Shown here piece by piece: positions 26,101 to 64,000 of a DNA stretch of 64,000 nucleotides. Position 1 is the first letter of the stretch, and the number at the start of each line of letters is the position of its first letter. The stretch is from NCBI RefSeq assembly GCF_003073045.1, contig NC_037592.1, positions 15,953,844-16,017,843 of the forward strand, read 5' to 3'. The DNA is from Pomacea canaliculata (taxonomy: Eukaryota; Mollusca; Gastropoda; Architaenioglossa; Ampullariidae). Below the pieces are notes generated by a model. It saw nothing but the letters and a program-made list of their open reading frames with translations. It was not told where the DNA came from and ran no database searches. A program made the translations under genes and the position numbers.

Positions 26101-27398
26101 AGATCAAGACTGATCATCCCTGAAGTACTGAGAACAGACATTCTCCACAGACTTCACATTGGACATCAAGGCATCGTAAAATGTCGTGCCTTGGCCAGAG
26201 AGAGCGTTTGGTGGCCAAAGCTTTCTCAGCAGATAGAGTCCATGGTACAGAAGTGCACAATTTGCATCAAGGAGAGGCCAATTCCCCCTGAGCCACTCAT
26301 TCCCTCTGTCACACCAGCATTCCCTTGGCAGAAAGTTGGCATGGACATCTTTGAACTGAAAAAAAAAACAGTACTTACTGTGGTGGACTATTATTCACGT
26401 TATATTGAGTTGGCACACCTAAAGAATACTTCGGCGGAAACAGTCATCAACCATGTTAAGAGCATATTTTCCCGCCATGGAATTCCACAAATTGTCATCT
26501 CAGACAACGGCCCGCAGTTCTCCAGCAAGCAGTTCCAAACGTTCGCTCAACAGTACGAGTTCACTCACACAACAAGCAGCCCGTACTATCCACAAGCGAA
26601 TGGCGAAGCCGAACGCGCCGTTCAAACTGTGAAATCAATCCTGAAGAAGGCAGATGATCCTTATTTAGCGATTCTCACATATCGCGCTACGCCACTTCAG
26701 CAAGGTCTCAGTCCAGCAGAACTGTTGTTCGGGAGAAGACTACGCACCATGGTCCCCACAATACCATCTCAGTTTTCCGAGAAAAAGGAAAAAGAAAGGA
26801 AGGACTTTCATAAGAAAGACGAGATGCAGAAGTTGAAACATAAACAGAACTTCGACAGAGCACACCGTGCCAGACCAGCCGCTGAGTTGGAACCAGGTCA
26901 GCCAGTTTGGGTGAAGCCAACCCAGACACCAGGGACGATCATCAAGTCTCTGCCCAACAGGTCATATGAGGTAGAGACTCCCTACGGTCGCCAACGACGC
27001 AACCGCCGTCTCTTGATTCCCAGAGATCCCAATCCCGAGAATCCCAGACCTATCCCAAAGACTCTGTCGTCCCTTATTCCAACAAACCCAAAGTCCGAAG
27101 AGGATCCCGACCCCTTGTCTGGTCTACACTCAGATGATCCAGACGTTACTGTTGACAATCCAGAGCCATGTCCAGGAGCCGCAGCCAGGAAGGTGCCAGC
27201 GTCCAAAGTCATCGCTCCTCCAGACCAGCCTGTCAAGACTACCAAGAGTGGTCGCATCATCAAGATCCCACAGAGACTTGACTTGTAAATGATTGACTCG
27301 AATCAAACGCACATAGACTTGAATAGGAAATTCAAGAATATTAAAATTAATGTTAATTAAGTTATATTGAAACAATGTCCATTTTAAAGAAAGGGAGA

Positions 27399-27582: not shown

Positions 27583-28718
27583 CATCTGTGTGACAAGTCT
27601 TTTACGTGAGAGAAAAAGTCGATACAGACTCTCGGTTTAGGCTTCACGTGGACACGCGAAGAAGGACACAATAAACAGTACTTTTTGTGCATAAATAAAT
27701 TATATTGCAGAAAAGATGCCAAAAGTGCGAACCAACCTACAATTTCCATTCCCAGAGGAGTGATTAACATGAAAGAAGATGTATGGCTGCTAAAAGCATG
27801 CGTGTCTATGGTAATGGAATATGTTCCGTTCTGCGGAAGAAACAAAAATCCGTATTCCGTTCTTCGATGGACGTTGTAATGTGGCTGCAAGTGCTGCAGC
27901 ATGAGGACTACTTATGTCTGTGCCCCCGGAGACAGATTATAGCAGCTTCAGACGAGATTCAGCGAGCTTGTTAATAAAATATAAAGATCATGCAGTACAT
28001 CGATTGATAACAATCACACTACACGTATTTTTAACAACAATGCTGTACAATCCATTGTTACACAAAAATTTATAGGAATTAAGATGCGTGCTTAGAACAC
28101 AGCAATTGTTCACAGTGAATTTTAGCACGCAGACATAATTTAATGGTTATTGTTTGTATCAGCGTTCGTTTGGGTGTGAACAAGTGCGGGCACGCACGTA
28201 TAGCTGATCGTCTGTGATTCAATGATCGCATTAAACAAATAAAAATCTCATTAATTAAAATTGGACTTCCCCTTTCTCTACAAAGCGATTAACACATCAT
28301 TGATCGAGCTTAACACAATATCACTGTACCTGTCAGCTTACTTTTTATTGCCGTATCTGAACAAAACCATATCCTGAATGAATATATGATAACTCATCAG
28401 CGGCCTATGAGGGTTTTGATAAGCGGAAAATGTTCGTAGATTTGATGATAAACATACCGATAAATACATACTAAAACATTTAGTGGTGTTGGAGACCCGT
28501 GCGCGAGCTCTAGGTAAAGAGAGTGAAGACGATTGTCGTTTCTTGCTGATATCGCACACCTTCCTCTTGCATTCCGAATAAACAAAGATTGTTAAAATAA
28601 ATTACAAATCAATAATATGATGATATTAGATAAAAAGGACTGGGAACATATACTCGTCTTTTTTTAGAAATAGATACGCAACAGTAAAGCGCTCAATAAT
28701 GTTGTGTATTAAAGGGAA
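27583..28718. other. Intergenic DNA between the LTR element and the HSDL1-like gene
   Basis: AT-rich sequence without a supported gene. The promoter of the HSDL1-like gene should lie near the right end. I see no clear core element. Confidence 0.5.
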
Positions 28719-28775
28719 ATGACTCTTACAGAAAAACTCTCTAAAGAGAAACCAGCAAAAGCGAAGGCAACCAAC

Positions 28776-40887: not shown

Positions 40888-43800
40888 ATGCAACCGGCCA
40901 GGCGCTCTGTCATCAATGTTATCATCCTTGTCTTCTTTTGCAAGGTAAGATCGAAATCCCTGTCTAGAAATGTGTTACATGCGTGATTTTGTCTCATCTG
41001 GCCACAGACGAGTATGTGAATTTACATCATTTATTTTTGTTTTGTATTTTTACATGTTGACCAAAGATGTTATGAGTTTTGCCCTTTACTGACTGGAAAG
41101 GAGAGGCTTATGTAGTCTACTTCTGGGATCAGACATACGATCATATACATATGCACATATATCTTGTATGCACATATATGATCGTTATACATATATACAG
41201 CTTGCTTGCTGTATTAAGACACATTTTGTAATGATGGCAATTTTAAAGTCAAGTAATTTAATCTCTAATTTTAAAAAGTTTGCCTGGATTTACTGTATTT
41301 TCAGAGACATTTAGCAATGGCTATTATTTTAATTATTTTCTTTGTTAATGTGGGATTTTGTTGGGGTCGTTTGTGAGTTAAATACAGAGTAAGCTTTTAC
41401 CGCGCCAGTCTTCTCCTGTAGAATGTAAAGCAATGGAAGTATTCGAGGTGGACAAATGGTAGAAGTCGTTTTAAGTCTGATTGCACTGCTCGTGATAATT
41501 ACTTACCTCGACACTGTTAACGTTGGCCGTTGCTAAACAAAAAAAAAAAAAAGAAAGAAAGAAGAGGGAAAAAGATCTATACTTCCGATAGAAGTCTTAC
41601 GAAATGGTTTTTCTCCATGTGTAATGGCTGATAGACGGCGACATGGAAGGGCAGAGGGCGGAGGGCGGAGGGCGGAGGAAGCAATGCTTGACTAAGCTAC
41701 CATGTCCTCTGCTGAAACTTTGAGCTGAAGCCAGAATGATAGAAAACAATTTGGAGGACATGCGCGTGCATAAACAAATTAATTTAAAAATGGAAGAATT
41801 TCAGAAGCCGTAGTAAGGCAGTTGATAGTCAAAACACGAAGGAGTTGTAAATGGACCGAAGCAAAATTAATGCTATAAAAATTTTTCTTGTACCAAAGGA
41901 GTCAAAAAAAGAAACAAAACTTTTTTTTATGTAGAACCCATTGTCATGATTTCGTCTGCTGTTAACACTGTGTCGTGTTTAATCCTAGACTTCGAGGCGT
42001 GGGTTAAATTCCTTTCATCAATAAAAAATCTCTGTCTTCCTTATTCCATCTTCATTTCCCATCGGCATTTAATCCATCCTTAGCATTCAAGACAAAAATA
42101 ATCCGGGTTTTGTGCTCAACGAAAAAAGAACGAGAGAATCTGTGAAGACCAGGGTCAAAGAGTGAAGAGAAAACACAGAGAGAGGAAGGAAGGTTTTGTC
42201 TTCTGGTCAGAAAAAAAGTTCTCTTTCTTCCTGGTTGGGTTAGCAGTTCGGGTCTCGCCTTTTGATGCGTAGAACCTGAGGTCATAACGGAAGTGTTTGT
42301 TTGGGGCGGGACAAATGTCGACCTTTTACTTCCGGTGTGGTTGCCATGTTGCCGGGCCACTGACGGTTGTTAGGGAAGCCAAACTTTTTAGAAACGGGTT
42401 AGACGCACGCTGATGCCTTGAAGTGTAACAAATCTTTCTCACGGTTCCTTCTATCAGATAAGCCCGACAAGAGGACAATTACTGCCGGCATTTTACTCTG
42501 AAAACTGCGATCTACAATGAAAAACTGCAGTAAATACCAAAATCACCATGGTTTAAGCAGACCACGCCGCAAAAAGCACATAAATAAATCAGTGTGGTCA
42601 GCTAGTTTCTCAGTAACCGAACTTCTCAGTAGTCTAAAGCAAAAAGGAAATAGTTTATTCAGTGTCGGATATATATATATATATCTTGTTAACAGATGGT
42701 GAATGCAGTTTGTAAGTAATCTTTTTGACTCTTAATTTCTTAATGACAGACAGTATTGAGCATAACAGAACAATTAAGCTACTAAATATACAATACTTCT
42801 AAGAACGCATAATCGAACTGTGATTGAAGAAATTCGACTGTAATCAGCTGTACCTAAGATGAATAGCAGACTGCATTTGTCGAGTCTATAAAAAGCAAAC
42901 AAACAAACAAACAAACAAACAAACAAACAAACAAACAAACAAACAAACAAAAAATCCCTGCATGTTATTCCAGCAAACAGCTGCAAGGACCCAGGATTGA
43001 CCCAGATGGTTCTACTTAGAGATATGATCACTGTGCCTAATACGATATTCAGTTCCACCTAGACCGGAAGTGACCTTTTATCAAAAAAACTCCGTAGCAT
43101 TCGTAAGTGCTTCTGGGTCAGGTGTCTCCGATAATGTTTTTGAGAAATGTTCCAAGTGTTGGCCCGAGTGACTCAGAGATACACTAACAGTTACACCAAT
43201 ACACACACACAGACAGACTGACAGACAAAAAGAGAGGTATGAAACATGTCTGAGTAAGTAAAGTACTCTTTTAAAGTCCTAATTGGTTCACAGATCATTT
43301 GATACAGACATGATACACACTCTCGAGTAATGACGATTAATGAAAGTTAGACCGGAAGTACTACTCAACTGTCTGCTTGCTTATGTATTGTCAGCAACAT
43401 AACTTTCCACCCGTTTATCTATCCACTCTCAGCCTCTCTGAGAAGCGATTACTTTAGGAGCAGGTACGTACCTGATAACCCCGAACAGTCGGCTGCAGAT
43501 TCTGGGTGAGTGCTGCTCTCAGCACAGCAGCTGCGACACGTGGTTGACATGCGCACCGGCACCGTCTCGTTTTGTTTCGTAATTTCCGCTTCCGATGAGA
43601 TCACGACAATGCCGACAGAGCGAGGCGACTTCCCCCACTCACAATAGCTTTCGTGTCTCGAAAGTGACTGCAGGTTCTCCAGCAGACGACTTGCAACTTC
43701 CAGTGCTAAATATTCAACCGATTTTTTAAAAAAAATTAAAAGGTGGGAGTAAGGAGATGCTGACATCTGTGAATCGGAGTGACGAAACGATGAGGTGTAC

Positions 43801-46800
43801 AGCGAACGTTCGAGAAGGCAGTGGAAGGTTGTAGACTTGTAGTCAAGACTCAACTGCACAACACATGTCTCAGCGTCTAGACTATTTGTATCAGCAAATT
43901 TAGATTTGGTTTTTATGAAAATGAATTTTAAGTCTATACAAGCGTTGTGCATAAAATTATTTAAACCTGAAGTCTAGTGAATGTGTTAAAAATTCTAAAT
44001 GTGTTGTGCAGATCAACCCTGAAAAAAAAAAGGCTAACTTCTGCTCCTTCGGTTTAATGGTGCAAATCTTACAACCAACCAACACACACTCACACCACAC
44101 ACACACGGCATTTACTTTCTTAACTGTTTAACTGCTATAAAAGCAGTGGTCACCCATAGAAGTGAATCAAGCCATACTGAGCATTTTCGGGGAATTAATC
44201 CTGGAACCTTAACAAGTGGGGTGGGATGAAGGTCCATTTCACGTTCATATTTTTGTGTGTCTTATAAAGCTGTTTTTGCAATGGGAATTTTAATTTTCTC
44301 ATGACCCTTAGTATTCCCACCTCTAGTATATGTGGGAAAATGCCACTCATCATACTAAGGGAAATAGCACAAAAAGTTCAATCCATCTGTCGCTGACTGC
44401 AAAATGCTTTCCAAGGCAAAGGACTAAAGTTTTTTTTTAATGCTAAAAGCTTTTTTTTAGGGTAGGTCAGGTAAATCCACCTAAGGATCGAAACACCTCC
44501 CAACCACGTCTGTCTAGATAAGCGTTCTCTCTCTCTCTTACAGACACATCCACTCGCGGACACAAGCACACGCACATACGCATGCATACATATTTACACT
44601 TTTGTCAAACCAATAATAGCGTAAACAATGTTTACACTGATAAGCATGTATACATCCTACTAACCACCACAGTACAGGTTTTGATCTACAAGGGCTACAC
44701 ACCAATACTTTCTCCTGCCCCCTCCCCCATCTCTCTCTCTCTTTGCCGTTTCTCTGCTTCATACGTCTTCCACTCGCATCTAATTACACGTAAACAGTAA
44801 CATTTAACGACAGAAACATGTTGCTAAATATACACCAGCAAACAAAAATGTCTATCAAGGGAATCTCGTGGTTTCCTGTTTCACTCGACCAAGCGGAAAC
44901 TTGTTCGCCTTCAGAAAGCCGCTGGATTCAGTGAGCTGTGCCGAACACGACACGCACGGCGTCACCAGACCCTTGGTCCGTCTTGCCTGCCCCTGTAGCC
45001 CCCTCGTGCTGATCACTGCAGATTATTTAGAAGTTGGGGGTAGGGAACACGAGCACCATGGTAATAACAAGCGAAATGAAAGGGCCATGATGATGATGAT
45101 GATGATGACGACGACGACGATGATGATGATGACGACGATTATTATCTTGCTAGCATTATTAATACTGTCCTTCCTTCTGACAAATTATTATCTTGCTAGC
45201 ATTATGTAGGTGAATTAAAAACATTTTTCGTATTTTGCACTTCCTTTCTAAGGTGTTAAGACAGGTGACAAGCACAGGTGTGATAGAGACACGGTTCATT
45301 GACTTTGAAAATGCTGAGGGCAAGCAAGTCAACGGAAAGTGCTGCGACCCCGGGTGGTGGTGGTCCAGGTCATGTACCACGCCGTGCGACCACAGATTCC
45401 ACATCTGCATGAGCAACATCACAGAGTAAGCAACCACTAGTAGTTTCGATGCTGATATTTCCAAGTTGCTTGCAGCCGCATTGTCAAAACTGTCGTTTTC
45501 TTGTGATTTTTTGTTAATTCGTAAGATATTGTTTACTTCAAGATTTTTATGCATGGACATATGTAAAAATTATTTACAGCCATGTAAGTTTAAAATTTTA
45601 AACAGTTTGGAGGGATATTTTTATAAACATTTTTGAAAATTCATTTGATGATAGTTCAAACTTTCACGTCAGCTTGAAATGTGCATTTCTCTTTGTGAGA
45701 ATAAATCATCCGACTGTAATCAGCTAGGAAATTTTCTTGAAAAATTGTAATGGACTTCTATTTATCGTTGTTGCGGCCCTATGCTCCTCAAGGGAGCAGC
45801 AACAAGGAATAAACTAAACTTTATCTATCGTATTTGAACAGTATTTATATTTCTACAGTGTCAAATCTCGTTTCCCTTATAAATAGTAGAAAAAGTAATT
45901 CCGTGAATGTTGATAAGCTGTCTGCACTTTCATTAGACGACCTCAAGAAACACACACACAGGCAGGTGATACGAAAGCCCTCAGACCTGAGTAAAGGTCC
46001 GTGTGGATGTTTAGTTTCTGTTACAAGGCAAGTCTTGGGGCAATGTGTCTAACTGGTGTACAAACTGGTTTTACTTCACCATCTTGTTCCCAGCCTCAGT
46101 CAGTCAGTCAGTGACTCTGTCTCATGAGCTTGTTGGTGTCAACAGGTCCAGCAGTATAGACGCCTGTGAGTTCGGGCGCCAGAAGTCTAGTCCGATGACC
46201 GAAAACCACATCGTGTTCAACGGAAATATCGGAAACCTTTCCAACCCTCTGCACTTTCCCTTCAACACCTGGCCTGTGAGTTCTTCACATTTTACTGGAG
46301 GTTACCGGTTATTTTAGCTTTACGTGTCTTGGCTCATTACCTGACATAATGCTTGAAAGTTGGCAGGTATATATATATACTTACATGTGTCAGAAGATGC
46401 CACACTTCACACAGGGTTGAAAGCACTAGTCTTTCTCTAAAAAAAGAAATTATCTGTGATTCATTTTGCACGTCTCTGGATTGCATTAAAACATATTATT
46501 ATTAAATGTCTTTATAAACTCAGTTAAATTATGTGGGATTGTACTGTTTAATAAGATATACATTTCATTTTTGGCAATCTATAACAGCTGTTTCATATAT
46601 ATATTTAAGCATAGTGTAAAAATTCTTGACTTTGTGGCGAAATGGTCCCTGTGACCTATCTGAGGCACATTTTTGTCCACAGGGTGTTGTGAAACTGAAG
46701 GTGGATGTCCAGGATGAGGACAGCGATGGATACGATCAGGTGGATCACTACGAGTACCAGTACGCGGCCAACTTGCTCACTCGAGAGCTGGACGCCCCCA

Positions 46801-49800
46801 CCAAGACCCTGCGGCTGTCAGGATCGAAAACCAAGTAGGATAGTCAGCACCCTGTTACGACTCATTGTCACTGTTTGAAAAACTGTTGTTTCAGCAGCAG
46901 CAGAACTAAGAATAATAATAATAGCTTTCAATCACAATCACAGTTTCATGCGCAGTGAGTGGCAAAGAGCACGAAGACAAATAAAATCATAACAAATATA
47001 TAATTGAACGCAGTGCATGAAACAGTTATACACAAGGGTAGACAATGCTCAGTTCTTGAGCACAGAGACAGCACGTGACACTCGCTCTCCTCTTGACAGT
47101 CACGTGACGTACTGTCTGATTTGTCCTCTATTCTCCTCTCGGCAGGCTCAACCTGGAGATGAAGGTGTTTTGTGACGTGAACTACTACGGGCCTCAGTGT
47201 GCTGTTCACTGTGTAGCTGCTGATGATGATTCTGGCCACTACACCTGCGACCCCATCACCGGCCAGCGAATCTGCCGCTTCGGTACTGACTGGCTTTGCT
47301 TTTGGTTTTGTTGTTTGTTGTTGTTGTTTTGTTTTGTTTGTTGATTTTTTTTGTTTGTTTGTTTGTTTCTTTCTTTCTTTCTTGTTTGCAAGACCTCAGA
47401 AATCGACACTATCTCATCGGGTAGCTTTTTTCAGGGTGGGAAGGCGACGACTGTCTCACCGACGTCGATGAATGCAAAGGTCATCGGTGTTACGACGGGG
47501 CTACGTGTATTGACGGCATCGGGTACTACACTTGTCTTTGTCCTCCAGGTCGCACAGGTTTGTACATATTTCTCGAATTGGTATATAAAGCCGTACTTTA
47601 TGCTCTTATTTCACCGTCAGGTGTATGTATCATGGTTGATGTGTCTCAGGCGTGGTGTGCAACGCGGAGATCAACGAGTGTGTCAGCGCGCCCTGCAGCA
47701 ATGGCGGCACGTGCCGGGACCTGGCTGACGGCTTCTCCTGCACGTGTCCTCCAGGGTGGACAGGCCATCGCTGCGACACCCCCGTACTCACATGCAGGCC
47801 GGACTTCTGCTACAACGGGGTAAACAGACATTGTGTACCGTGATTATGTGTCAGTCAGCTCCATGACATCGGTCAGAACACGCGGAAGTCTTAAAGTGAC
47901 GTTCCTTGTGACGTACGGGAACGTATTGCTGGCACCATGTAATGTAAGCCAGCAGTTTTGCAGGATGGTAAAATTTAATCCTAATTGATCTAGTTAAAAG
48001 AATTTAGAACAAGTATGCATCAACTTCACAACAGGACTGTTATGAATAATATATGTGAAAAGTTTCTTTGAATGGCATATTTTTCGGGGTGGGGGGGAAT
48101 TTCAGACACAGTATTTCGTCATTGTTTGACCTCACGATGATGCATTACTGATTTAGATGTCTCTCTCTCAAGGGCGTGTGTTACGAAGCGAGCGGAACTG
48201 CCGCCTGCTCCTGTCCGTGGGGATGGACGGGACTTCACTGCGAGATCAGAGGACTGGGATGCAGCAGCTCTCCTTGTCAGAACAACGCCACGTGTAGCGA
48301 CATGATTAATGGCTATGTCTGCACTTGCCAGGACGGATTTTCGGGTAAGGATACAATTTATCATACCAAAGTTTTTCAGAAGACAAATCCTTGTACGAAA
48401 AAACTAACCATAAAACCGAATATCTGAGATGAAGTTTAGCTGTCTGTCGGTTTAGCCACGACATTTCGAAAAAAACACCGTTTTCCATACATAATCTAAC
48501 TGTTCCTCTATGGATCTGATACTTAAGACGAGGATGATGGTTGTGGTACAGTGACGGAGGTGAGGACAGTAGTAGGAAATACGTAGTCAAAAACAATTTC
48601 TCGTGCAGTCCTCTATTCGTAAACACGATGATGTTGGAGATAGCACTGATGGCCCTTTTGTGTGGACAAATATATTAATATAATCAGTCATTAATCCTAT
48701 TTGTCTATAATAATATATATCCTATTGTTCCATATTATCTTACGCTTTCTCTTTGTTATTTGTCGTCCGATTTACTAAGTTGTATTATTATTACTGTATT
48801 TCTGTTAACACTCGGGTGTTCTTTGGATTGAACATTCACTCCACTGTAATATTAACCTTTCATTGCAGAAATATATTACATCTACCTTACAGTATTAAAG
48901 AACAAACTTCAAGCTTGTGACATTTCTGTTGCAGGAGAACACTGTGAAATTAAAACAAACGAATGTGAGAGTAGCCCGTGCCTGAATGGAGGTCTTTGCC
49001 TAGACGAACATCTTGGTTTCACCTGTATATGTCAGGCAGGATTTACTGGTAACACCTTAGATAAGCTTTTGAGTGCATACATGTTTGTATGGTAATTTAA
49101 TTTATCTGCACACCACCTTCGTCTGTCCTAGGTAGGAGTAAACAATGAAGACAATGCACCTGGTGTCTGCAAGATTTAAATACTCTAGGGTTCAAAAACT
49201 ACAATTTCCAATGAGAATAATTCTTTCTTACAATGAAACATAGAGCATGAGCAACAAACTGTCTTGTTGTCACACTGCATGCAATTCTTGAACGGGTAAG
49301 GTACAATAAGAATCTAAAGAAGTAAATTAGTCATGAATACGTGGAGAATGAATACGTCGATAATGATATACACGAACCCTCAAAGGTTCCAAGAAGATGA
49401 AGGGTTTGGCGCAAGGCCTCGTCCGTTTGTGGTTTGTGGCCCCTAAAAACATCAACTTTTTAAATTAAATACACTTCTTTCAACATAAATCCTTAGAAAG
49501 CAGTTAAAGGTTGTTTATTTAAAAAAAAACACCTGTGTATTCATAGCTGGAATTCAATCGGCAATGGACATGTGGAAATGAAAATACAGGCAGATCTCTT
49601 GTGCTAGTGCTAGATCACGTGACTTGAGTCATCAATGTAGTAGATATGTAAGTTCGTGTTGCGATTGTACTGATGACACCGCACCCTACCCTGGAATGTC
49701 AACAGGCTCCCGGTGCGAGGATACAGTTGATCCTGTGTACGAGCGCTCCTTGTTTCAACGGTGGAACCTGTCTACCCGACCCTGGGGATGGCGACTTCTG

Positions 49801-52800
49801 GTGTCAGTGTCCCCCGGGGTATGTCGGCCCCGCGTGCCAACACGCCGACCCCTGCTGGCCAAATCCATGCCAGAACGGCGGACTTTGTGCAAGTTTTGAT
49901 AACACCTACAAGTGCGTCTGCCTGCCAGACTACGAGGGTGTTCACTGTGAGGCTAACAAAGACGACTGCGCCTCCAACCCCTGTCAAAATGGAGGAAGCT
50001 GTGTGGACGCAATCAACAGCTACTCTTGTCAATGTGTCAGTGGATTTTCAGGTTGGTTCTTGTGGCTGTATCCGTGGATATTTCATTTAGTTTTCTGAAG
50101 AATTAGCCGCTGTTTTAGCTCCATATCCTGGTTTTATCTTTTAGCTTCTTCATTCCATTGAGACATGGAGGTCTTTATGTATATTTCTGAACACATTTTC
50201 TTCTTCTCCAGGAATGAACTGCGAAAACATTTCGGATCCATGCCTGGGAAATCCGTGCCAAAACGGGGGAACGTGCATCGCTGACGTCACACAGTATTCT
50301 TGCGAATGCGAAGACGGTTTTTCAGGACCTGACTGCACCTTGGGCACAACATTTGATCCGTGCCGCAGCAGACCCTGTTTCAACAGCGGAATTTGTGTCG
50401 TCGGGGTCACGGGCACGTCATTTTACTGCCATTGCCTTGCTGGCTTCAGTGGAACCCTCTGTAGGGAGAGGCTTGCGTTAGACCCTTGTCTCTCCAACCC
50501 TTGTCAGAACGAAGGGAGCTGTGAAGCAGATGGTAAAGAAGGATTTGTATGCCACTGTCTGGAAGGATTTGGGGGAACAACTTGTGAACAAGTCGTGGAG
50601 GAGACAGTGGATCCGTGCAGTCCCAATCCTTGTCAGAACGAAGGCAGTTGTGAACTTAAACACGGAGAAGAGTTTGTTTGTCATTGCCCTAATGGCTTCG
50701 CTGGTAAAATGTGTGAGATACACACAAGCATCTCCACAGCGTGTGACCACAATCCGTGCAAAAACTCGGCCACGTGTGTTCCTCTTGCAGAAGGGTTCAG
50801 CTGCACCTGTCCACAGGGATTGACAGGAAAGCTGTGCGAAGAACAGGAATTAAAGATAGTAGATCCCTGTGAGCCAAACCCTTGCCTCAATAATGGTGTT
50901 TGTACATACGTAAATGGCAACTTCACATGCGTGTGCTGGGATGAATTTGCAGGACCCCGCTGCGAAGCACCAGTAGAGTCCACGGAGAGTAGCCAGACGA
51001 TGTCCACAGAAAGCTCGACATTGGAACCAGCGGCGCCATCTTTCACTTCTCCCCAGTCGGACCCGTCATCCTCGAGGACAACTCCATCCAGCGCTGTCTC
51101 CACGAAGACAAAATGGAGCTGTTGACAAGCGACACAGACTGGACAACAGACCTGCAGGAGGCGACGACAGTCGGCCGGGAGAGGGCGCACCCCTGTCAGT
51201 CCACCCCTTGTGTGAATGGCGGCGTGTGCGTGATGCGTGGCGACAGCTACAAGTGTGCGTGTGCCAAGGGCTACGTCGGCAAGCTGTGCGAGATTGACGT
51301 GGACGAGTGCAGCTCCAGTCCTTGCCAGCATGGCGGTACGTGCAGCGACTACGTCAACGACTTCGCGTGCAGCTGTGCGGAGGGATTCACAGGTTTGTGC
51401 GCACGTGAAATAAACTTGTACACCTCCGACTCTCGGGGTTGCAAGAGTATCATATCGGTCAGTCTCCTTCTTGAACTGTAATCATGAAGCAGAGGTAACG
51501 TCCGTTGACCCTGGATTTGCTCCTTACCTACAGCCCTTGAAATTCCTCTATAGCCACAGCTGTAGAAAGTACGCATCACGGAGGATTCTGAAGTTTATCA
51601 GCGCACTCCTATGTTTCCGGTTACAAGACAAAACTTGGGGTCCATAGCTAACCTGAGGTTACGTCACCTCTGCTTCATAGTTATGTCCTCCGGTGTTCTT
51701 CTTGAGACTTCTTTTATCTTTTTGTGATAAGTGGTTTAAAGGCAGTCAAAGAAAAATTAATTTACTAGTTTCTTGTTTCTAGAGCTATGAAGCAATTTTG
51801 TGGTTTGATTCTGTATTTTTTCTTCTTCCTCTTCATCCATTCTTGCTCTTATTCAGTGTGCAGCAAAGATCAAATCAGAATAATATTGTCTGTTACCTCT
51901 GACAATATCTTGTGCATGTGTGTGAATAAGCGCGTATACACACTTTGCTTTAGGAACTCATTGACTTTTCTTGTGATTCAAGGGAAAATGTGCGAAACTG
52001 ATATCAACCTGCAACCCGCCAGCACCAGCAGCAGCACCACAAGGGAGGTAACACATACGTCCTCCGAAACATCGCCAGCCGCTTCCGTTGTAGAAGATTC
52101 AACTTCGAAAGCGATCATCCTTACCTTCATCGTACCCAACGTCACTTCCACAAGCCCGACACCAGACAGCACAAGAGAAACAAGAGATTCAGCGCCACCT
52201 ATCGCCAGCCAAAGCACCAGGAGCACGCGGAGTGATTCCTCAGGCCTGACAACAACCGCGACATTCCACCCAAACACGTCAGACACCGACATGCCTGATA
52301 CTACTCACGAGGCCCTCTCAAGTGACACAGCAAGCGAGGGTCAAGGGACACTGTCACCTCAGTTCGGTGATGTGTCGGACCTCCCTTCTGAAGTCACGTC
52401 TTCCAGTGACGTCACAGATTCGACCAGAGAAGGAAGTGGCGAGCTGGCATTGGATGTGACAACAGACGACAGTAGTGCAACAACTTACACTAAAATAGAT
52501 GTCACCACCTTGCTTCCTGTCACAGCGACTGACGTCACGTACTTTGGTGAGGTGTCTCGTACAGCAGAGGGCAGGTTCACGGCAGATACAACGTCTTCTC
52601 AGGATCATCTGGAAACAGGGTCGGCAGCATCGACATCGACTGTCCAGATGCCAGAGACAACCACCGATGTTTCACGTACGTCCTCCGGTGACATCACAGA
52701 CATAACCATCGAAGAAAGTGCAGTGACATCATATGTAGCCTCTGTGTCATCAAATGAAACAGCGGAGCAGACCACTGAGCGAACACCTCGTGACTACACT

Positions 52801-55800
52801 GAGGGAAGTGGCGACGTACCACCCACGTGGACATCATCTGGTGAAGTCGAAGAACAAACTAAATATTACAGCCCAACGCCACAGGAGTCCGGTGACCTGC
52901 TACAAACGACAAGCGGTGACCTTTCACCTATGCCGACTGCGTCTGGTGATCTTCCAACTTCAACAATAGCTTCCGATGACGGGCAAGAAACAACAAGTGG
53001 CAAAGAATCGTCCGCAGCAACATCATCAGGTGATGCCAGCTCTGATGTAACGTCTGAAAGTGGTGGAGGACGCCTAACGTTTTCTGCCCAAACCTCTAAA
53101 CTGCCATCCGCTGACAATGTCACGGACAGCAGTGGAGATTATGTTCCAGAAGCGTCTTACGGCGATGAACGATCAACACCTCAGACTTTTTTCCCTTCCA
53201 CTCTGATCACTTCTGAGGGCGGCGACAAACTGATCGCAACATCCTCGGGGAAGGCGCAGAACTACATGACAAGATGACTACACAGGAAGCTCCGCTGGGG
53301 AGTGGCGACGTCATTCAAACAACGGCATCGGGAGAACATTCAACGGAAGACATGTCTTCTTCTGGCTTCCTTCATTTCGGAAGCGGTGACATGTCTCTTG
53401 GAGAAATGACAGACATATCAGGTGACGCAGTAACGGAAGTCTTCTCTGGTGAAATGGCGTGTCCGTCGGGTGACGATTCGATCACGACGACATCTAGCGC
53501 CACTACGACGTCATCTGGCGACACAATGACGTCATCTGGTGACACTATGACGTCATCTGGAGACACGACGACGTCATCTGGCGACACCGTGACGTCATCT
53601 GGAGACACGACGACGTCATCTGGCGACACCGTGACGTCATCTGGCGACGCAATGACGTCATCTAGCGCCACTACGACGTCATCTGGCGACACAATGACGT
53701 CATCGGGTGACACCGTGACGTCATCTGGAGCCACACACATTGACGACAGCAGCGCATTCAGCGGTGAGGAAAGTGTGGTAAGCGATAGGCAGACTACCAC
53801 ATCAGGGGATTTGCCAACAGCCACCACCGCTGAAACAATTACAAGTTTCGCTGCATCTGGTGACATCACAGAGCCGTCGAGTGGAGACCTCAAACCCTTT
53901 ACTGGTGACATGACAGAGCAGTGGAGTGGCGATCATGCCTCCGGTGAGAGAAGCGAAACAGCAAGTCAAGAAGTGTCACTCACGTCACCGCCAAGCAAAA
54001 ATGTCACCATTATTTTCAAGCCAGTGACGTCAGAGAAGGAGACAACAACAGACTCTGATTCCGTCACTGAAAGCGGAGACAGGGCGGTCCCATCCAGCGG
54101 TCATTCTGAAGTAGGAGGAGACAGTCTGGTGCCAGTGACGTTAGATAGGACAGCTGACACGTCTAGTGGTGATCACACAATAGTGCCAACATCTGCAGAC
54201 ACAGTCAGCAGTGGTGACAAAGATGAAACTTCTTCCGATGAGACAACTCCACAAACATCTGGCAGTGGTGACAAAGATGAAACTTCTTCCGGTGAGACAA
54301 CTCCACAAACATCTGGCAGTGGTGACAAGCTTGACACACCTGTGACTGATAAGACCATGCTGCAAACGCTCGAGAACGAGCTGACTAGTGGCGAGCAAAC
54401 GTCAGGTAGCATGGTGGGCAGTGGCGATCCCACTAGTGGAGACGTGCTGAGCAGTGGTGATCATACGACAGGTGACATGGTGACCAGTGGTGATAACTCG
54501 ACTGCAGTGGTTCTGAGCAGTGGTGATCAAATGTCAGGTGACATGGGGAGCAGTGGAGATCAGACGTCTACAGTGGTATCGCCTGGTGGTACCACTGACA
54601 GCAGCGCCAGTGACATGACAGCACAAGAAATGACATCGGGCATAACATCAAGTGGCGATGTCGGTGAACTGGGCTCTTCTGGAGACACGACAAGTGGAGA
54701 AAAACAAACAACGACAGCCACGTCAGCCCTCGAGGGAGAGGAAGATGACGGCTCCGCACTAGTTACCACTGAGGTCCTGACGACTTCGGCGAGGCAGATG
54801 GTGACGACTTTATCCGATACAGACAGTGCATCCGACAGTGGTTCTTCGACATCGTCAACTGAAATGGAGTCTGGTGATGACCATTTGATGACAACTGCAA
54901 ACATCCTGACTGAAACTACTTTTTTCTCGGGTCACTCAGGAGACAGCGACACTGAACGTTCACACGTTTCCTATTCTGGAGAAGTGACTAAATCTCTCGA
55001 TTCGTCTGCTGATAATGTTTCGTCCGGACTTTACTCTGGAGATACGATACTCAGTGGGGAGAGGACTTCCGGCGAAGGTTCTGAGGCTTCTGAATTATTT
55101 ACTTCCAAATCTACATATTCGAGTGGCGACAGTACTTCGTTGATTACTTCATCAGGAGAGTTCGCAGCTTCGGGCACTGGAAGTGGCAGTTCAGGAGAAC
55201 AGGTGGAGACTTCGTCAGGAGCCATTGTAACGCCACTTGCTTCACAGTTTTCTACAGTGCATTTGGAAACATCAAAGCCTCCAACAGACACTGGGGACAT
55301 TTTCTCATCAAGTGGGACAACTTCATCCGGAGACATATCAGTGTCAGAGTCAAGTGGTGACACGCAATCAGGAGACAAATCAGTGTCAGAGTCAAGTGGT
55401 GACACGCAATCAGGAGACAAATCAGTGTCAGAGTCAAGTGGTGACACACAATCAGGAGACACATCAGTGTCAGAGTCAAGTGGTGACACACAATCAGGAG
55501 ACACATCAGTGTCAGAGTCAAGTGGTGACACACAATCAGGAGACACATCAGTGTCAGAGTCAAGTGGTGACACACAATCAGGAGACACATTAGTGTCAAA
55601 GTCAAGTGGTGACACGCAATCAGGAGACACATCAGTGTCAGAGTCAAGTGGTGACACACAATCAGGAGACACATCAGTGTCAGAGTCAAGTGGTGACATG
55701 CAATCAGGAGACACATCAGTTTCACAGCCAAGTGGTGACGTGCAATCAGGAGACACATCAGAGTCAAGTGGTGACACGCAATCAGGAGATAAATCAACGC

Positions 55801-58800
55801 TAACACTAAGCAGTGACACAGAAGTAGGATACACGTCAGTGTCAACATTGAGAAGTGACAGACACTCATCAGTTTCAGAGTCAAGTGGTGACATACAATC
55901 AGGATCAGAGCCGAGTGACGTCGCACGAAAAGGAACCACGTCAGCTTCAGAGTCTAGTGGTGATATTCAGTCAGGAGAAACAACAATGTCAACATTAAGT
56001 AGTGTCACAAAACTGAGAGGCACAATGGAGTCACAGTCAAGTGGTGACACACAATCAGGTGACATGTCCGTTTCACAGTCAAGTGGGGACACACAATCAG
56101 GAGACACAGCAATGCAAACGCTAAGCCGTGACACAGAAGTAGAATACACGTCAATGTCAACTTTAAGCAGCTACACACAATCGATATACACTTCAGTTTT
56201 AGAGTCAAGTGGTGACGCACAGTCAGGAGAGAAAACGGTGACAAAAGTAAAGAGTGACTTGCAATCAGGAGACATGCCAGTATCAGAATTGAGTGGTGAA
56301 ATGCAGTCAGGAGACACAACAATGCCACCGTGGAGTGGTGACACACCAGCTTCAATGTCGAGTGGTGACACACAGTCAGGAGACACAACAATGCCACCGT
56401 GGAGTGGTGACACACAGTCAGGAGAAACATCAGTTTCAATGTCGAGTGGTGACACACAGTCAGGGGATGTAATGTCCCAGACAGGATCAGCGTATTCTGA
56501 AGAGACAACAGACTCATCGGAAGATAAAAGGGTTTCCAATGATACGACATCTTCTGGAGACGCCACGCTAGAGACATCCTCATATTCAGGTGATTTCACA
56601 GCTATCACGGAAAAGTCGACCGATGATTTGACAGTTACAAGACGCACAACTGTCTACCTTGACACAACAGAGTTTCCCACGAAGCATACGACTCCTCCCA
56701 GTGGATCTGGGGACATCTCATCAGGCGACATGGCGACTCGGCAAACGATAAGTGCAGAATCAGGAGACGCCACGTCTGGAGAATATTCAGGAGATACATC
56801 AAGAATGCCGTCAGGTGACATCATCACAGATGAATACTCAGGGAAGACATCAGGAATGTCATCGGGTGACGTCACAGCAGAAGAGACATCAGGAATTCCA
56901 TCAGACACATTATATGAAGCAGGAAATGACACAACAGTTTCAGGTACAAGTACAACCACCTCAAAGACAAAACACTTTCCAGTATCCCAGGAATATGAGA
57001 CCAGCGCTTCGGGACACGTCAGCCTTCTGACCACAGAGCCTTTGACCTCCAGAGATCAAGACTCATATGTGGACACTACTGTCTCTGGGGAAAAGGAATC
57101 GTATTCTGGCGACATAAGAGAGACATCTTATTCAGGAGAAGGGGACTATACGGGAGACATTCTTGAGCCTACGGCGTCAGGTGAAGAAATGTCGACACAC
57201 ACAACGGCAAGTGGGGAAACAGAGACATCGACAGCGTCAGGTGAAGAAATGACACACACAACTGCAACCATTTCTTCCGGAAGTGGGGAAACAGAGACAT
57301 CGACAGCGTCAGGTGAAGAAATGTCGACACACACAACGGCAACCATTTCTTCCGGAAGTGGGGAAACAGAGACATCGCTCAAGGAAACGTCCTCGCTCTT
57401 TCAACGACATTTGGATAATGTAACCGAAGAATTGAGTTCTGGTGAGTGGACTACTGAGTCTGTAAATGCTTCACAATTTACCCCCACGATGGAAAAGGTG
57501 TCTTCCTCACAAGGCATGTTTACTTTCGATGACACACTTCAGTCAGGGTCAGGAGATGTCACAGGCGTAAATAAGACTGTTTCTGCTGACACGACAACTG
57601 ACGAGGCATCTGGAGAGAGTACACTAATCGAAAGTAGACTTACATTAACAACTACTCAGGTTTCGGGGACTGTTACAGACTTTGTGTCATCCGAGAATGT
57701 GACCACGATGTCAGAAGATACGTCACTCGAACACGTTACAGAAAAGAAGACCACAAGCGATTATGAGGAAAGTGGATCAGGAATTATTTCTGGGGACGGG
57801 GAGATCTCAAGTCGCCAACCTGAATCAGAAGACACAACGGCCATCACCTCATCAGATGTGCCTCACGTTAAGGAAATGAGTTCTTTCCCAGCAGAAGTAA
57901 CTCTTTTGCAACAGAGTACGGAAACGCAAGATGTGAATCGCACCGATTCTGCAATAACATCTGAATCAGCAGTCGAGGAGACAGCTTCTGGGGACGAGCA
58001 GCTGAGAACTTTAGAAAGCTCTACGTCCACACAACCTGTTTCAGAATCGACTTTGTTGGAAACTACCGCATGGCGACCCGAGGAAACAGAATCTGATGAG
58101 ACTGTCGAAGACACGAGTGGCGAGGTCACATCCAAAGCTCCGCACTATGTTGAAACCACCGCGCCTGAAAGCGAGGAGATAAATGACACTTTCTCTGGAG
58201 AGGACGGGTTCGATGTTACAACCATTGGTAACATCTCAGTTACCACGGAAACAAGTGTCTCTCGCTTCAGCCAGAACGTAACATCCACTTTGAAGCTGGA
58301 ACCGACAACCGTCAGTGAAGAAGCCACAAAGGCTGATGACAGTGATGGAGAAGTATCTCACATCAGATACTTGGTAGACACTACGCTGACGAGCAACGGA
58401 AGCTCTGTTCCCGAGAGGACTTTGACTCAGACTGACGTTACCAGCACCCCCGAGGCAACAGTCACCCACATCACGTCAGGTGACACAGCTGCTCCGTTCA
58501 GTAACCTGACCATTTCGGAAACGTCACAGGAGCCTGGGTCACCAACTGACCTAACGGTAGCCTCGATCGAATCGTCCTCCAGTTTGATGGACACTGTGTC
58601 GACCGCTGATGAGGAGAGTCGGACCTCGGACTTGGGAGACACAGACGCTGGGTACAGAGAAACAACGCAGGCATATACCCCTTCCAGCACCCCGGCGTCC
58701 ACTGTCACGACTAAATCAAGCCACGGCAGTCCTGTATCCACCACGATGAGTCAAAGTACAGTAAGAAGTAAAGGTAAGTTCTCTTATTTTTCTACTACAT

Positions 58801-61800
58801 TCATTCTTAGAGTTTGACTAGTATTATTATTATTAATCTGGTGCCCAATGGGTTGTGTGTGTGTGTGAAGGTGTGTGAGAGAAATACAGAAAGGATCATG
58901 ATGCTTTTTCATCTACAAGTTTCGTATTCTTCTAATTCGTTACTATTTGTGGCATGTTTCTTAGACCTTGTCGACAGCGCCTCTACAAGCCCCAGCAAGC
59001 CCACGGAGCAGGTCACAAAAATGACATACCCAGTGCTTCATTTCGGTAACGACTCTCTGGTCCTCTGGCAGACCACCAAGTCCAGGCCAGAGACAACCAA
59101 ATCGGTCATCACAGAAACTCCGACAAGTCCTTTGACCTCTCAGGACAACATGATAAAAATCGAAAGCCAGACCAGGATGATTTTCCTCCACACCACGACC
59201 CCGGCGCCGCCCTTCCAGCTGCCCTCCGTCACGGATGAAATCGTCATTCATCATGAGTCCATCGATGTCAAGAGCAACGACACTTTGCCAATCGCTATCG
59301 CGCGCCGTCTGAATGAGACGGCTGCTAACAAGACCGATGATAAAGACGACGAACGAGCGGCAACGACTGATGACGGCGATACCAGCGCAACACTGCGGAC
59401 GACGGATCAGGTCGAGGTCAGATCCAGCCCCAGTCAGTACGACCCTGAGACCAAGCAGACCGTCCCGTTCTACGCTCGAACCAAGGAGTGGGAGAGGCGA
59501 GAGTGGGAGAAAAATCAGCAGACCACGGGTCTGTCTGCTGGAGATATTACAACATGGCAACAAACGACAGAAGGATTTACCGAAGAGATAGGGACCGCAT
59601 CGGAATCAGTTCGTGAGGTGTTCAGTACAACAGAAAGACCTCGTGAAGGCCTTCACACTACACAGGAAGGTGATGACGACCTTGAGACTTCAGAGTTGAC
59701 TACAGAACAGACATTTACAGATGCTACTTTAGTTGAGGAGGATCCCCAATCCCTTTCTGACAAAGAGAAATCAGCCTCCAGAGCCCCCGTCACTTTGTCT
59801 GTAGCCACAACGATATCTTTACCATCCGAAACAACTGCAAACAAATCTGTCCCTGATGATGAAAGCAACAAAACAAGTTCGAATGACCCCAGTCTGTTAC
59901 AGGCTCACCAACAACCGGTTCTCTTGGGTCACAAGTGGAATCTCTTCTGACGTGGTTGTATGAAAAACTGTCCAACACGACTCAGTCCGACAGGACTTTC
60001 ACACAGGAAACAACCACGGAGGAGGCAAGAGGCGGTGAGACCACAGAGCAAACGTTTACAAAAGCCACGCAGATAAAATCATCGGATAATTCGTCTTCTC
60101 GCTGGGAGATAACTGATGAAACTGTAAACGTAACGACACAAACTAAGACCAACAGAACTGTTGAGACTACAGTCTCATCGTCTCAATCTAATGACAGTTC
60201 TGATTACACCTCGATGTTCACAGTGTCTCATGCTCGTGTCACTACAGAGTCACAGCCGAGTCACACCTGGATGAGACAAGAATCTGCCGAGGTCTCAAAA
60301 ACAGAGGATGTATCTGGGATCGTTTCCACGTTCTCCCCTGTTGTTTTGTCTACCAAAGTCACGCAGGAAGAAAGCGACCAAACCGCTCCTGCAGTGACCG
60401 ATGATCCAACGAAAGTGATTGACATGGACAAGATGGCTTCCGAGGTTGGTGCTCCTGAAGTAACGCGAGACTCTGAAGAATGGAACGTTACTGACGTGAC
60501 CAGAAAACCACGGATTTCGCAAGCAACAGCCGACGCCGTACACACCAGCACACCATATGACGTCAGCACAGAAAAGACACACGCGCAAACTCACGAAACA
60601 GAAATGACTGCGACTTCGGAAAGGCAGGAAGAGGAATCAGTGGAATCGCAGACAAGCCCCTCGCCGGCCCTGACGAGCGTGGACCCCTACGTGACTCACG
60701 TAGAGCCGCCCACCATCTCGAGAGTGATTGTCTCCCTGAGTCGAGGGTCAGAAACGTCCACCTACTCACGGCAGGTCTTCACTGCGCTTGACACGCGGGG
60801 CACGACACCGGCCACCTTCCGTATCGTCAGATCCACCACTACCCCCAAGCCCTCCACTACCACGAAGAAGAAGACCTCCGCCGAGCCTGCAAGACTGACC
60901 ACCGTGGATAAAGCAGGCCAGAGGAAGACTTCTGCAAGAACCATTCATGCGACAACGGCAAGAGTCAAAGGACTGGCGGAGAATGTCACCAGCACAAGCA
61001 GTCCGACCAAGTCTTCATTGTCGCCAAAGACAACCAAAAAATCCAAACCGACTTTAAAGACACGACCTACAGTGACACTCAGGATCAAGACTACACCCGC
61101 GCGCTCGACACCTTCACCCCGCACCAAACTTTTGACGACGACTAGGAAGCCACCCAAGACTACGCCGATAAGAGTAAAAGTAGAACCGACTACGACATCA
61201 CATTCGTTGGTGCAGACGACAAATAAAGAAGTCCTTCATCCTCCAGATATCAGCACCCTCCGACCTGAAAAAGTGACATTGGTAGTCATCCGAGCGGTCA
61301 AAGACGTGTACAACATCAGTCGTGCGACTGTGGAGCAGACGGTGCAGCATGCAAGGGAGGTAAGAAAGTTTACGAAGGCAGGTTGTTTAACAAACACGAT
61401 AATATATAAATTCTGGAGCAAAATTTTTAAGTTTTGATCTCCAACCTATTGCGACTCTATTGCGTTTATTATGAGCAGAACGCATCCGATCGATGGCCTC
61501 ACATAAGTATGTCAGGGTCTTCACCTTGTCCTCATTCGTCTCCTTTCTTCCATTTCCTTCTTCTCCTTTCCTCTTTTATTTATTCTGGATGACAATACAA
61601 AACTACTATATTTTTCTTGCATGTTCACTACAGCTGAAATACTCATGACTGATTAGATGTGCTGATTGAAAGCTAAGCTCTAGGGTACAGAAATAAAATT
61701 TATTTGTACATTTACTGACCCTTAAATTGACTGGCATCAAGCGCAGCGATGAACAGGAAATTATATTTTGAAAACAGTTTAGCATATTGTAAGTATATAT

Positions 61801-62798
61801 TTTTTTTATTTGTGTAGCTTTTGCGGCGGTCCCTCAAGAAGCTGGCCAACCTGTGGCAACAGTGTGTTAGCGGCGTGGTGAGGGTCATCTACGTGCCTGC
61901 CAAGAGCGGCATCGAAAAAATACAGTCCAAGCTCAACATCGCTTACTCCAACATCCGCAAAGCCTACGAATATGGCAAGAGCGCCCTCAGGCGCACGTAC
62001 AACTCCATCCAAGTCAATCTCAACGGCTTTTACAACAACCTTGCCTCGTACTACAACCGCTACTACGACAGGTTTAGCAGCTTCATTCATACCATCTTCA
62101 ATCCGTCGTCCTCACCTGCAGCTTTGACTTATAGTAAGCAGGGAAGCAGCGAAGATGGAAGAACTGCTGTCGGCGAGAGCGTGAGGGGAAAGGCAGTTAG
62201 CGGTGGTTACGCCCCTGCTTATTCCGGGAGAAGCGTCGGTTTTGACAGCGATGTGCCTGCCAGAATTCCGGGAAAGATTCCGCCCTTGCCTCCGGTTGCT
62301 TCCAGAGAAATAGTGGCTGTGGTACCAGCCTCAAAGCGCAACATACTTCCTGTACTTGACACTCAAGGCTACCCTGGGTTCTTGAGCCGCATCACAGATA
62401 ATGTTGAAAGGGATGCTCGACATCCACCTGGACCTGGCTACACCGGCCATCGTCCTGACTCCCTTGGAGGCCGGTTCCAGCCTGCTTCCGGCACTGGCCA
62501 GCGAGGACCCGGACATGATGATCTCGCCAGAGGCTCTTCGGATAATCAGCAGCAGGCTGGTGGCATTCAGTCATCTGAACGCGTCGAGCCTGACAGCCGG
62601 GGAACTGGCGCAGGCCTGTCAGGAGCGAGCAGGCCACACGTCCCGGGACTGTCAAGCGAAGATGTTGCAAAGGGTACGGCAACGAGTCCTGAGCATAGGA
62701 ATTTCGAGGGTCATTTCGTCAGAGCGGGTCAAGCTGGGAGCTATCTAGGCAGTTTGAAGATGCCCTCGGAGATGCAGAGCGACAAAGAACAAACGTAG
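40888..62798 (+). CDS. Giant DSL/EGF Notch-ligand-like protein with mucin/proteoglycan-like stalk, about 14 exons
   Basis: Exons: 40888-40944, 45253-45425, 46146-46275, 46683-46834, 47146-47282, 47435-47557, 47650-47819, 48173-48344, 48935-49048, 49706-50051, 50212-51392, 51983-58773, 58965-61359, 61818-62798. The first exon encodes a signal peptide ([19 protein letters not shown]) and joins in phase to the MNNL domain ([15 protein letters not shown], then GKCCD). Next come a DSL domain ([12 protein letters not shown] ... GHYTC), 16 EGF repeats, a roughly 2,900-residue Ser/Thr/Gly/Asp-rich region, a basic Thr/Pro/Lys stretch and a helical tail. Total is about 4,300 residues. DSL proteins bind Notch. 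Jagged/Serrate also carry 14-16 EGFs, but have a transmembrane segment that I cannot find here. Single-base frame breaks appear in exons 10 (extra base at 49732-49735), 11 (near 51110), 12 (near 53270) and 13 (near 59933). Frames between them are long and stop-free, so assembly error is the likely cause, although an intron at 50973-51157 would also cure exon 11. Exon 2 could alternatively start at 45265. The final stop is uncertain. Confidence 0.85.
42896..42953. repeat. (AAAC)n microsatellite
   Basis: About fourteen uninterrupted tetranucleotide copies in intron 1 of the DSL gene. Confidence 0.95.
43472..43705 (-). CDS. Possible minus-strand exon inside DSL intron 1
   Basis: On the minus strand an acceptor (ATATTTAG) and a donor (TTATCAG|GTACGT) bound 234 open bases with a coding-like translation ([19 protein letters not shown], then [14 protein letters not shown] and a cysteine group CRSCC). 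Its exit phase does not fit the terminal exon at 38910-39255. No family is recognised. Confidence 0.2.
45088..45140. repeat. (GAT)n/(GAC)n trinucleotide tract
   Basis: GAT repeats with an inner GAC block, directly left of DSL exon 2. It is followed by a 21-base direct repeat (about 45138-45159 and 45183-45204) containing CTTGCTAGCATTA. Confidence 0.9.
45253..47450 (+). other. MNNL and DSL domain-encoding exons of the giant ligand
   Basis: Exons 2-4 encode the MNNL (C2-like) module, including [12 protein letters not shown], the CDHRFHIC cysteine pattern and the hydrophobic strand [15 protein letters not shown]. Exon 5 and the start of exon 6 encode the DSL domain from about residue 178, with YYG, the six-cysteine spacing, GHYTC and the closing GWEG. 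These are the Notch-contacting modules of Delta/Serrate proteins. Confidence 0.9.
47442..52000 (+). other. Sixteen EGF repeats in exons 6-12
   Basis: By eye there are 16 six-cysteine EGF modules. EGF1 (DVDEC...) is calcium-binding type with the [12 protein letters not shown] hydroxylation pattern. Several carry the O-glucose motif CxSxPC (CVSAPC, CSSSPC, CESSPC, CASNPC, CQSTPC) and the O-fucose motif of C-x4-T-C type (CSNGGTC, CQNGGTC, CQHGGTC). EGF14 and EGF15 are separated by a Ser/Thr-rich spacer encoded at about 50973-51180. EGF16 is split by intron 11 and ends [11 protein letters not shown] in exon 12. Confidence 0.85.
53520..53735 (+). repeat. 21-bp coding tandem repeat carrying TGACGTCA palindromes
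   Basis: About ten 7-codon units encoding variants of [14 protein letters not shown] and SSGDTVT. Seven units contain the exact octamer TGACGTCA, at 53527, 53548, 53590, 53632, 53653, 53695 and 53716. Other units carry CGACGTCA instead. Confidence 0.9.
55338..55793 (+). repeat. 42-bp coding tandem repeat ([14 protein letters not shown]), about eleven copies
   Basis: Units of 14 codons are nearly identical at the DNA level, differing mostly by single substitutions such as CAC/CAG variants of the third SGD flank. One unit is shortened by two codons. Diverged copies continue to about 56470. The high nucleotide identity indicates recent homogenisation or expansion. Confidence 0.93.
61260..62440 (+). 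other. Helical C-terminal region of the giant DSL protein
   Basis: From about 61260 through exon 14 the composition changes to a non-repetitive, basic and aromatic, probably amphipathic helical stretch ([18 protein letters not shown], then [18 protein letters not shown] and [17 protein letters not shown]). It lacks a long uncharged segment that would cross a membrane. After about 62400 the coding character seems to move into another frame (for example [16 protein letters not shown], with a stop at 62746-62748), so the true C terminus is unresolved. Confidence 0.55.
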
Positions 62799-64000
62799 CA
62801 GCGCAGGCTAGCTGTTGTCTCGAAGAAACTTCGGCATCGTCGTGGAGCCAACCGTTGGGACAAATCTGTGTGGTCGATCCTTCAGCATCATCTGATATTC
62901 GGTGCCGCCGCAATAGGAAGTGTGTTTTTGACTCTCAGACCTTCTAACTCGCAGCGGAAGAAGACCAAGGGCGAGATGGACATCGGAATAGTGCACACGA
63001 ATTTTAAAAGCTCATCTAAACCTGCAGCACAAAGACGCAGAACCTGGCTGAATGACCGAGGCATCGAAAGGTCTGTCACTTGATGATGAATTTTGTGAGT
63101 GTGTGTGAAAGAGAGAGAGAGGATGAAAACATGTACATGCATTCACTTAAGAGATTTTTGGCTATAAGATGCCCCGAAAAACTATCATCATGTAAACAGC
63201 TTTTATATTTCTAAATATGAAGTGCGCGAGAAAACACACACGCACCAGTCAAACATTATAAGAATTCACATTCTAATCACTATGATTACAACAGTGTATA
63301 ATATTTTACTTTTAATAAAGTTTTTTTTTGTTTTTTTTTTTTTTTTTTTGCAATGGAAAGTTCACAATTTGTCTACAGAAGATTATTACCAAGCAATACT
63401 GTTTGTTGACTTACACTGATACCAGCATTAATGTTGCCAGATACTTCGGAGATAGTTGTCATTTCTTGATTTTTTTTTAATTTCACTTTTTCCCCAAGTG
63501 GTTTGATGTTTTAACTATGTGACATGTATGATGAAACGTGTGTAAAATGCTTTTCCGAGAATTTTCTATATAAACTTGTACTCTTTAACTACATTGTGAA
63601 TTTTAATGATGTGTTCCACAGGTTTATATTTGTTCTTATGATTAATTGCTAAAGATAGGAATGATAAAAATTATATTTTAATGCGTTTTTGTCTATTCAT
63701 GATGTTCATATGTGTGTGTCAATGTATATGAATAGGTTTACCTGAGTGCACAAAGTTTGCTTTCTCAAATAACTGGATGGAGCTCATTGTAAATCTGTTT
63801 ACTAAAATTGAATGAACAAGAATTCAAGGCACTGTTCATTCAGTTTTAATAAACACATGCCTACCAAACATCACAATACACAGAAGTAAGTAACAAATCT
63901 TGATAAAATGCCTGCCACGTCTACAGCTGATAAAATTCAGTGTGCTAATTCACCATACTCAAGACGCCAAGGTGTAGACATCTCTCTGTACCGGTGATGT
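62799..64000. other. Probable 3' UTR and downstream DNA of the DSL gene
   Basis: The first 270 bases still look coding-like in two frames. One reads [17 protein letters not shown] across about 62742-62790 and stops near 62945. The other reads LIFGAAAIGSVFLTLRPSN and stops near 63081. The true C terminus may therefore lie here if indels are present. Beyond about 63100 the DNA is AT-rich and noncoding. Confidence 0.4.
63314..63319 (+). promoter_or_regulatory. Possible polyadenylation signal AATAAA of the DSL gene
   Basis: AATAAA lies about 515 bases after the stop at 62798. Another AATAAA lies at 63848-63853, so the 3' UTR may be longer. Confidence 0.4.

Follow-up and report, generated by a model that had tools for sequence, protein, structure and literature searches.

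We describe a gene of the gastropod Pomacea canaliculata in which a Notch-ligand head appears to be joined to a giant mucin/proteoglycan-like stalk. The gene occupies positions 40888 to 62798 on the forward strand of a 64,000-nucleotide window of contig NC_037592.1 (15,953,844 to 16,017,843 of assembly GCF_003073045.1), and all coordinates given here are those of this window. We consider it an even bet (probability of about 0.5) that its product is a glycoprotein of gastropods that evolved from a DSL ligand, is secreted or held in matrix, and has a head that works by calcium/lipid rather than by gripping Notch. In such a protein, a giant stalk and a basic, Tyr-rich helical tail would have come to stand where a Notch ligand has its membrane end. 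The product would probably be secreted and kept in matrix, in mucus or on an epithelial surface.

The gene model, read from open frames and splice sites, has 14 exons and 13 introns, all of them GT-AG. Exons 1 to 9 are joined into one continuous open frame from the ATG at 40888, encoding a signal-like segment, MNNL, DSL and EGFs 1 to 5. Exon 1 (40888-40944) holds the ATG and a hydrophobic, signal-peptide-like segment (best 19-residue hydropathy, 1.75). The MNNL/C2 region begins in exon 2 (45253-45425), where tblastn identity to P0054, a 1,729-amino acid Gigantopelta aegis protein recorded as 'mucin-17-like', is 51%; it continues through exon 3 (46146-46275) and exon 4 (46683-46834), which includes an Asp-rich loop. 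Exon 5 (47146-47282) encodes the DSL domain except for its sixth Cys, which lies in exon 6. Directly after DSL come EGFs 1 to 5, all conventional, in exons 6 to 9 (47435-47557, 47650-47819, 48173-48344 and 48935-49048), then EGFs 6 to 8 in exon 10 (49706-50051; the frame of 49730 gives three EGF matches) and EGFs 9 to 16 in exon 11 (50212-51392). MNNL (PF07657, residues 27-177) scored 64.9 bits against a cut-off of 22.5, the six-cysteine DSL (PF01414) scored 47.8 against 24.2, and 16 EGF patterns follow DSL. An earlier note, made from the sequence alone, had listed a signal peptide, MNNL, DSL and 16 EGF modules, and each of these is borne out, the first as a signal-peptide-like start. Its statement that all are chained by in-phase introns is correct for the introns of exons 1 to 9, but the frame changes inside exons 10, 11, 12 and 13.

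The stalk comprises 3,033 residues when read in its open frames (Ser + Thr, 36.8%; Glu, 8.2%; Asp, 8.1%; Gly, 7.3%), a long Ser/Thr-rich region of the kind that marks mucins. Most of it is encoded by exon 12 (51983-58773), which begins with the final residues of EGF16, passes into SG[DE] repeats, and stays open for 418 codons in one frame and 1,841 in another. Exon 13 (58965-61359) encodes the end of the stalk. We counted 124 SG[DE] motifs, compared with 6.5 ± 2.6 (highest, 14) in 300 shuffles. Such Ser-Gly pairs beside acidic residues are a feature of proteoglycan cores, and here they are putative sites of glycosaminoglycan attachment. N-glycosylation sequons are also in excess (33 versus 13.6 ± 3.0 in shuffles). 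The stalk would probably be heavily O-glycosylated and may bear glycosaminoglycans. The SGD-rich stalk of the earlier note is far from a chance pattern, but it is longer than the estimate of about 2,900 residues given there, and its SG[DE] motifs are confined to stalk residues 151 to 2161, with none in the last 872. A 42-bp coding tandem repeat within exon 12 (25 copies, 55325-56346) shows growth of the stalk via tandem duplication. VWD/cysteine-knot domains, or SEA plus a transmembrane segment, define gel-forming or MUC17-like mucins; none of these domains gave a Pfam match in the stalk and tail pieces.

The tail is encoded by exon 14 (61818-62798), which carries a basic, Tyr-rich helical domain (61818-62093) followed by a low-complexity tail and a stop at 62796-62798. 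The helical domain (LKKLANLW...YSNIRKAY...LRRTYNS...FYN) has 92 residues, 10 of them Tyr, and a net charge of +12. We searched the C-terminal part against proteins of about 500 to 1,592 amino acids, scoring the 7,998 candidates that shared most words (E ≤ 1), and obtained two matches: a 760-residue hypothetical protein of Batillaria attramentaria (P0121; 3.1e-58) and P0122 (2.0e-32). P0121 matches exon 13 in both of its frames, including a YARTKEWER block, and runs across the exon 13-14 junction into the helical domain. In tblastn comparisons with exon 14, identity was 47% over 61818-62366 for P0121 and 51% over 61818-62243 for P0122, and the matching parts of both are strongly basic (+16 and +21). 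AlphaFold placed helices at residues 2-24 and 32-94, in agreement with the helical C terminus of the earlier note, although the model is of low confidence (mean pLDDT, 61.4; 3 sequences). The helical domain has no Pfam match, and a sequence search of the PDB returned nothing for 61818-62177 and one match at E 1.1 for 62386-62745. Foldseek gave 177 matches to the tail model at E ≤ 10 and none at E ≤ 0.001; the best among the 50 of 177 listed were 3onx_A (0.31) and 3okq (yeast Bud6 core; 0.33). We propose that the basic tail is the likely anchor to polyanions.

The exon 14 frame is open up to its stop, the only one before 63081, and beyond about 62366 it has no backing from any relative. We also considered a C terminus pieced together from frame 1 (62386-62745), frame 2 (62699-62946) and frame 0 (after 62799), which looked protein-like by eye and held a weak transmembrane candidate. 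We did not adopt it as the main model, given that frame 0 contains 1 stop in 421 codons, compared with 13 and 21 in the other two frames, and that a synonymous-codon score over 62386-62740 favors frame 0 (z of 4.2 versus 2.2 for frame 1). A first codon score had been set aside, being dominated by mucin composition. GC content at third codon positions speaks against this choice, favoring frame 1 (0.71 versus 0.47), but the value in the training set is 0.52. A match of frame 1 to P0122 scored 43; of 2,000 shuffles, 19 reached this value, and two of the 30 off-frame controls exceeded it (52 and 55). Note that 62386-62745, an overlapping open frame of 120 codons on the forward strand with high third-position GC and helix-like sequence, is a candidate coding frame in its own right. 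A possible polyadenylation signal, AATAAA, lies at 63314-63319.

The nearest relatives of both the head and the tail are gastropod proteins. Head residues 20 to 300 were scored against proteins of about 731 to 2,326 amino acids. Among the best 120 of 678 matches, which were mainly EGF matches (Notch, crumbs and similar), six proteins have a DSL domain: Gigantopelta P0054 (57%), Littorina P0066 (38%), Biomphalaria P0112 (33%) and the Jagged proteins P0078, P0114 and P0118. A search with MNNL-DSL (residues 20-226; E ≤ 0.001) found P0054 as the single match among 210 candidates of about 1,324 to 4,214 amino acids, with 53% identity. In a tree of seven MNNL-DSL sequences, the four mollusc sequences stand apart from the three Jagged sequences. 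However, two of the mollusc sequences sit on very long branches and the tree does not firmly pair Pomacea with Gigantopelta, so we rely on identities instead. P0066 and P0112 (35% and 33% identity over MNNL-DSL) share with Pomacea a divergent DSL lacking F207 and conventional EGFs directly after it, but each has a clear transmembrane segment and cytoplasmic tail, and no mucin stalk was seen in either. In records these two multi-EGF, membrane-spanning proteins are named Notch-like or fibropellin, and they perhaps belong to a divergent gastropod DSL group.

The earlier note had called the architecture unfamiliar and suggested looking in other molluscs for DSL and MNNL proteins with Ser/Gly/Asp-rich C termini. 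Unusual it is, with each half backed by relatives, but it is not unique: P0054 carries the same kind of head, with EGFs and a long Ser/Thr-rich stalk, lacks F207 and keeps the C2 aspartates. It differs in having 6 EGF patterns rather than 16, a Thr-rich stalk (1,241 residues) with only 4 SG[DE], and a deposited model that lacks a helical tail. P0121, which resembles the exon 13 and 14 regions, their junction and the helical domain, has 37 N-glycosylation sequons, no SG[DE] and 22.6% Ser + Thr, and its deposited model has no head. Across these relatives a long, apparently glycan-prone stretch persists, whereas the SG[DE] motif does not. Because of the Gigantopelta record, the DSL-mucin architecture can be said to be in databases already, under a mucin name. 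We did not find such a protein in the open-access literature, among the matches listed. DSL-family proteins of molluscs without a transmembrane segment are already in print: the available part of PMC8166818 reports a mollusc-specific Delta2 of this kind, as well as DSL genes with other domains. Delta2 appears there as a shorter version of Delta1 whose domains are the same, and no stalk is described in that part; by this description Delta2 would differ from the Pomacea protein. Seven Delta copies are reported from Lottia, and absent transmembrane segments were suspected to be faults of assembly or annotation (PMC2770060, available in part).

In Jagged-1, the Notch-binding face of DSL includes F199, R201, R203, D205 and F207 (PMC3415683), and F207A alone lowers binding to background (PMC3888931); the roles of these and of the C2 residues are taken from the available parts of the two papers. 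We aligned Pomacea, P0054, P0066 and P0112 with the three Jagged proteins. At the five face positions Pomacea has H/V/A/D/S, keeping one of five, with Ser at F207; at the C2 sites D72, D140 and D144 it has D/D/D. The corresponding residues are F/K/T/D/T and D/D/D in P0054, T/V/R/D/S and D/D/S in P0066, F/E/Q/D/K and S/N/N in P0112, F/R/R/D/F and D/D/D in Jagged P0078, L/V/R/D/F and D/D/D in Jagged-2b P0114, and F/R/R/D/F and N/D/N in Bemisia Jagged P0118. F207 alone separates the groups cleanly (absent from 4/4 mollusc rows, present in 3/3 Jagged rows), and the other face and C2 sites vary in both. Like Jagged/Serrate, the Pomacea protein has MNNL, DSL and 16 EGFs. Unlike them, it lacks the DOS-type atypical EGF1-2, a feature of Delta and Dll-1 as well as Serrate/Jagged (the Jagged-only block is gapped in its row of the alignment, and conventional EGFs directly follow DSL in all four mollusc rows), and Pfam showed no VWC/cysteine-rich domain after the EGFs (five pieces of stalk and tail, none with a match at E ≤ 1). 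By descent the head is a member of the DSL family, yet with its Notch face mostly changed and conventional EGFs right after DSL it is unlikely to be an ordinary Notch agonist. Since it keeps C2 residues of the calcium/lipid type and not the Notch-gripping face, it would most likely serve as an adhesion or surface module.

The main competing explanation is that the protein is a soluble or matrix-tethered Notch antagonist or co-ligand, whose DSL/EGF head would bind Notch but not exert the pull that a membrane ligand does. The earlier note leaned this way, proposing a secreted or matrix-bound Notch modulator. MNNL, DSL and 16 EGFs are all present, and molluscs have a reported Delta2 without a membrane segment (PMC8166818, available in part). 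So far as the sequence goes, Notch could still be bound through other residues. However, four of the five face residues are changed and DOS-type EGFs are absent. We regard this role as unlikely, though it is the main rival; the evidence agrees better with a protein of matrix or mucus than with a presented ligand, and it is the modulator role that is weakened.

Less probable still is an ordinary membrane-anchored DSL ligand whose transmembrane segment escapes notice because of a frame break, an erroneous stop or an unrecognized exon. We found no convincing transmembrane helix and cytoplasmic tail by hydropathy, within the limits set by the frame breaks, in line with the earlier note, and a secreted product is favored. 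Beyond the signal peptide, 19-residue hydropathy peaks at 1.47 within an exon 11 EGF, 1.23 in the stalk and 0.92 in exon 14 up to the stop. The best exon 14 candidate, ILQHHLIFGAAAIGSVFLT, lies past the stop in the exon 14 frame, scores 1.47 and is followed by a basic stretch. The positive codon score of 62810-63080 in that frame (z of 3.2), the four frame breaks elsewhere in the gene, and the clear membrane segments of P0066 and P0112 all favor a hidden anchor. Nevertheless, 1.47 is far under these two controls (3.09 and 2.38) and no higher than the stretch inside the exon 11 EGF. Furthermore, the tail relatives show no transmembrane segment (peaks of 0.81 in P0121 and 0.75 in P0122), and ILQHHLIFGAAAIGSVFLT has no similarity to their tails.

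We consider it improbable that two adjacent genes, one encoding DSL and EGFs and the other the stalk and helical tail, were read as one. No protein found joins head to tail, for which reason a single transcript from the head exons to the tail exons is presumed here, and the non-repetitive match to P0121 starts only in exon 13. On the other side, Gigantopelta has the head joined to a mucin stalk, exon 12 passes from the end of EGF16 into SG[DE] repeats, and introns 11, 12 and 13, each of them GT-AG, connect open frames. The exon 13 break (between about 59880 and 59950) looks like a shift within the Pomacea copy and not a gene border, because P0121 matches both sides as one continuous protein. 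Of the other breaks, that in exon 10 (near 49736) falls inside one EGF and that in exon 11 (between about 51050 and 51170) separates the 14th EGF from the 15th, with Pfam EGF matches on both sides of each break; the third lies in exon 12 near 53245. No introns that would account for the four breaks were seen, and exon 10 offers by eye no alternative acceptor that restores the frame. Equally improbable is a decaying pseudogene of the family, for which the four breaks inside exons speak, but the splice sites are intact, the 3,033 stalk codons contain no stops in their open frames, which leans weakly toward assembly error, and the exon 12 and 13 break stretches contain runs of four identical bases, probably a usual site of long-read error.

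Several points weigh against a matrix glycoprotein that has left Notch binding behind. The four frame breaks could mean that this copy has decayed or that the assembly contains faults. The gene model of P0054 may have been cut short, in which case a transmembrane segment could lie beyond its end, P0121 and P0122 may be partial, and no single protein with both head and tail was found within the size ranges searched. Jagged-2b P0114 also lacks two of the five face residues, F199 and R201 (3/5 kept), so the face is not strict and its loss is a hint, not proof, of lost Notch binding. Nor are the C2 residues a sure mark of function, as all three are gone in P0112 and two in Bemisia Jagged P0118. 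Divergent nematode DSL proteins act on Notch.

Elsewhere in the window, aspartyl protease, reverse transcriptase, RNase H and integrase Pfam matches lie over three overlapping frames at 23208-27288 (forward strand), which we take to be a Ty3/gypsy-like element. Exon-like pieces at 28713-33364 (forward strand) look by eye like an HSD17B12-type short-chain dehydrogenase; neither of the two pieces searched against Pfam gave a match.

We tentatively raise the possibility, to which we give somewhat less than even odds, that gastropods have a family of giant glycoproteins, of matrix or mucus, that arose from a Notch ligand turned structural. In this family, the DSL face would have been lost and the C2 head kept, the transmembrane segment would have given way to a fast-evolving stalk, and a new, conserved, basic helical anchor would have been gained. 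The helical tail is a conserved domain with no Pfam match. DSL genes are counted as Notch ligands in surveys, and our reading, if true, would warn against scoring such genes as Delta copies. It would also mean that a core signaling head can be turned to another use.

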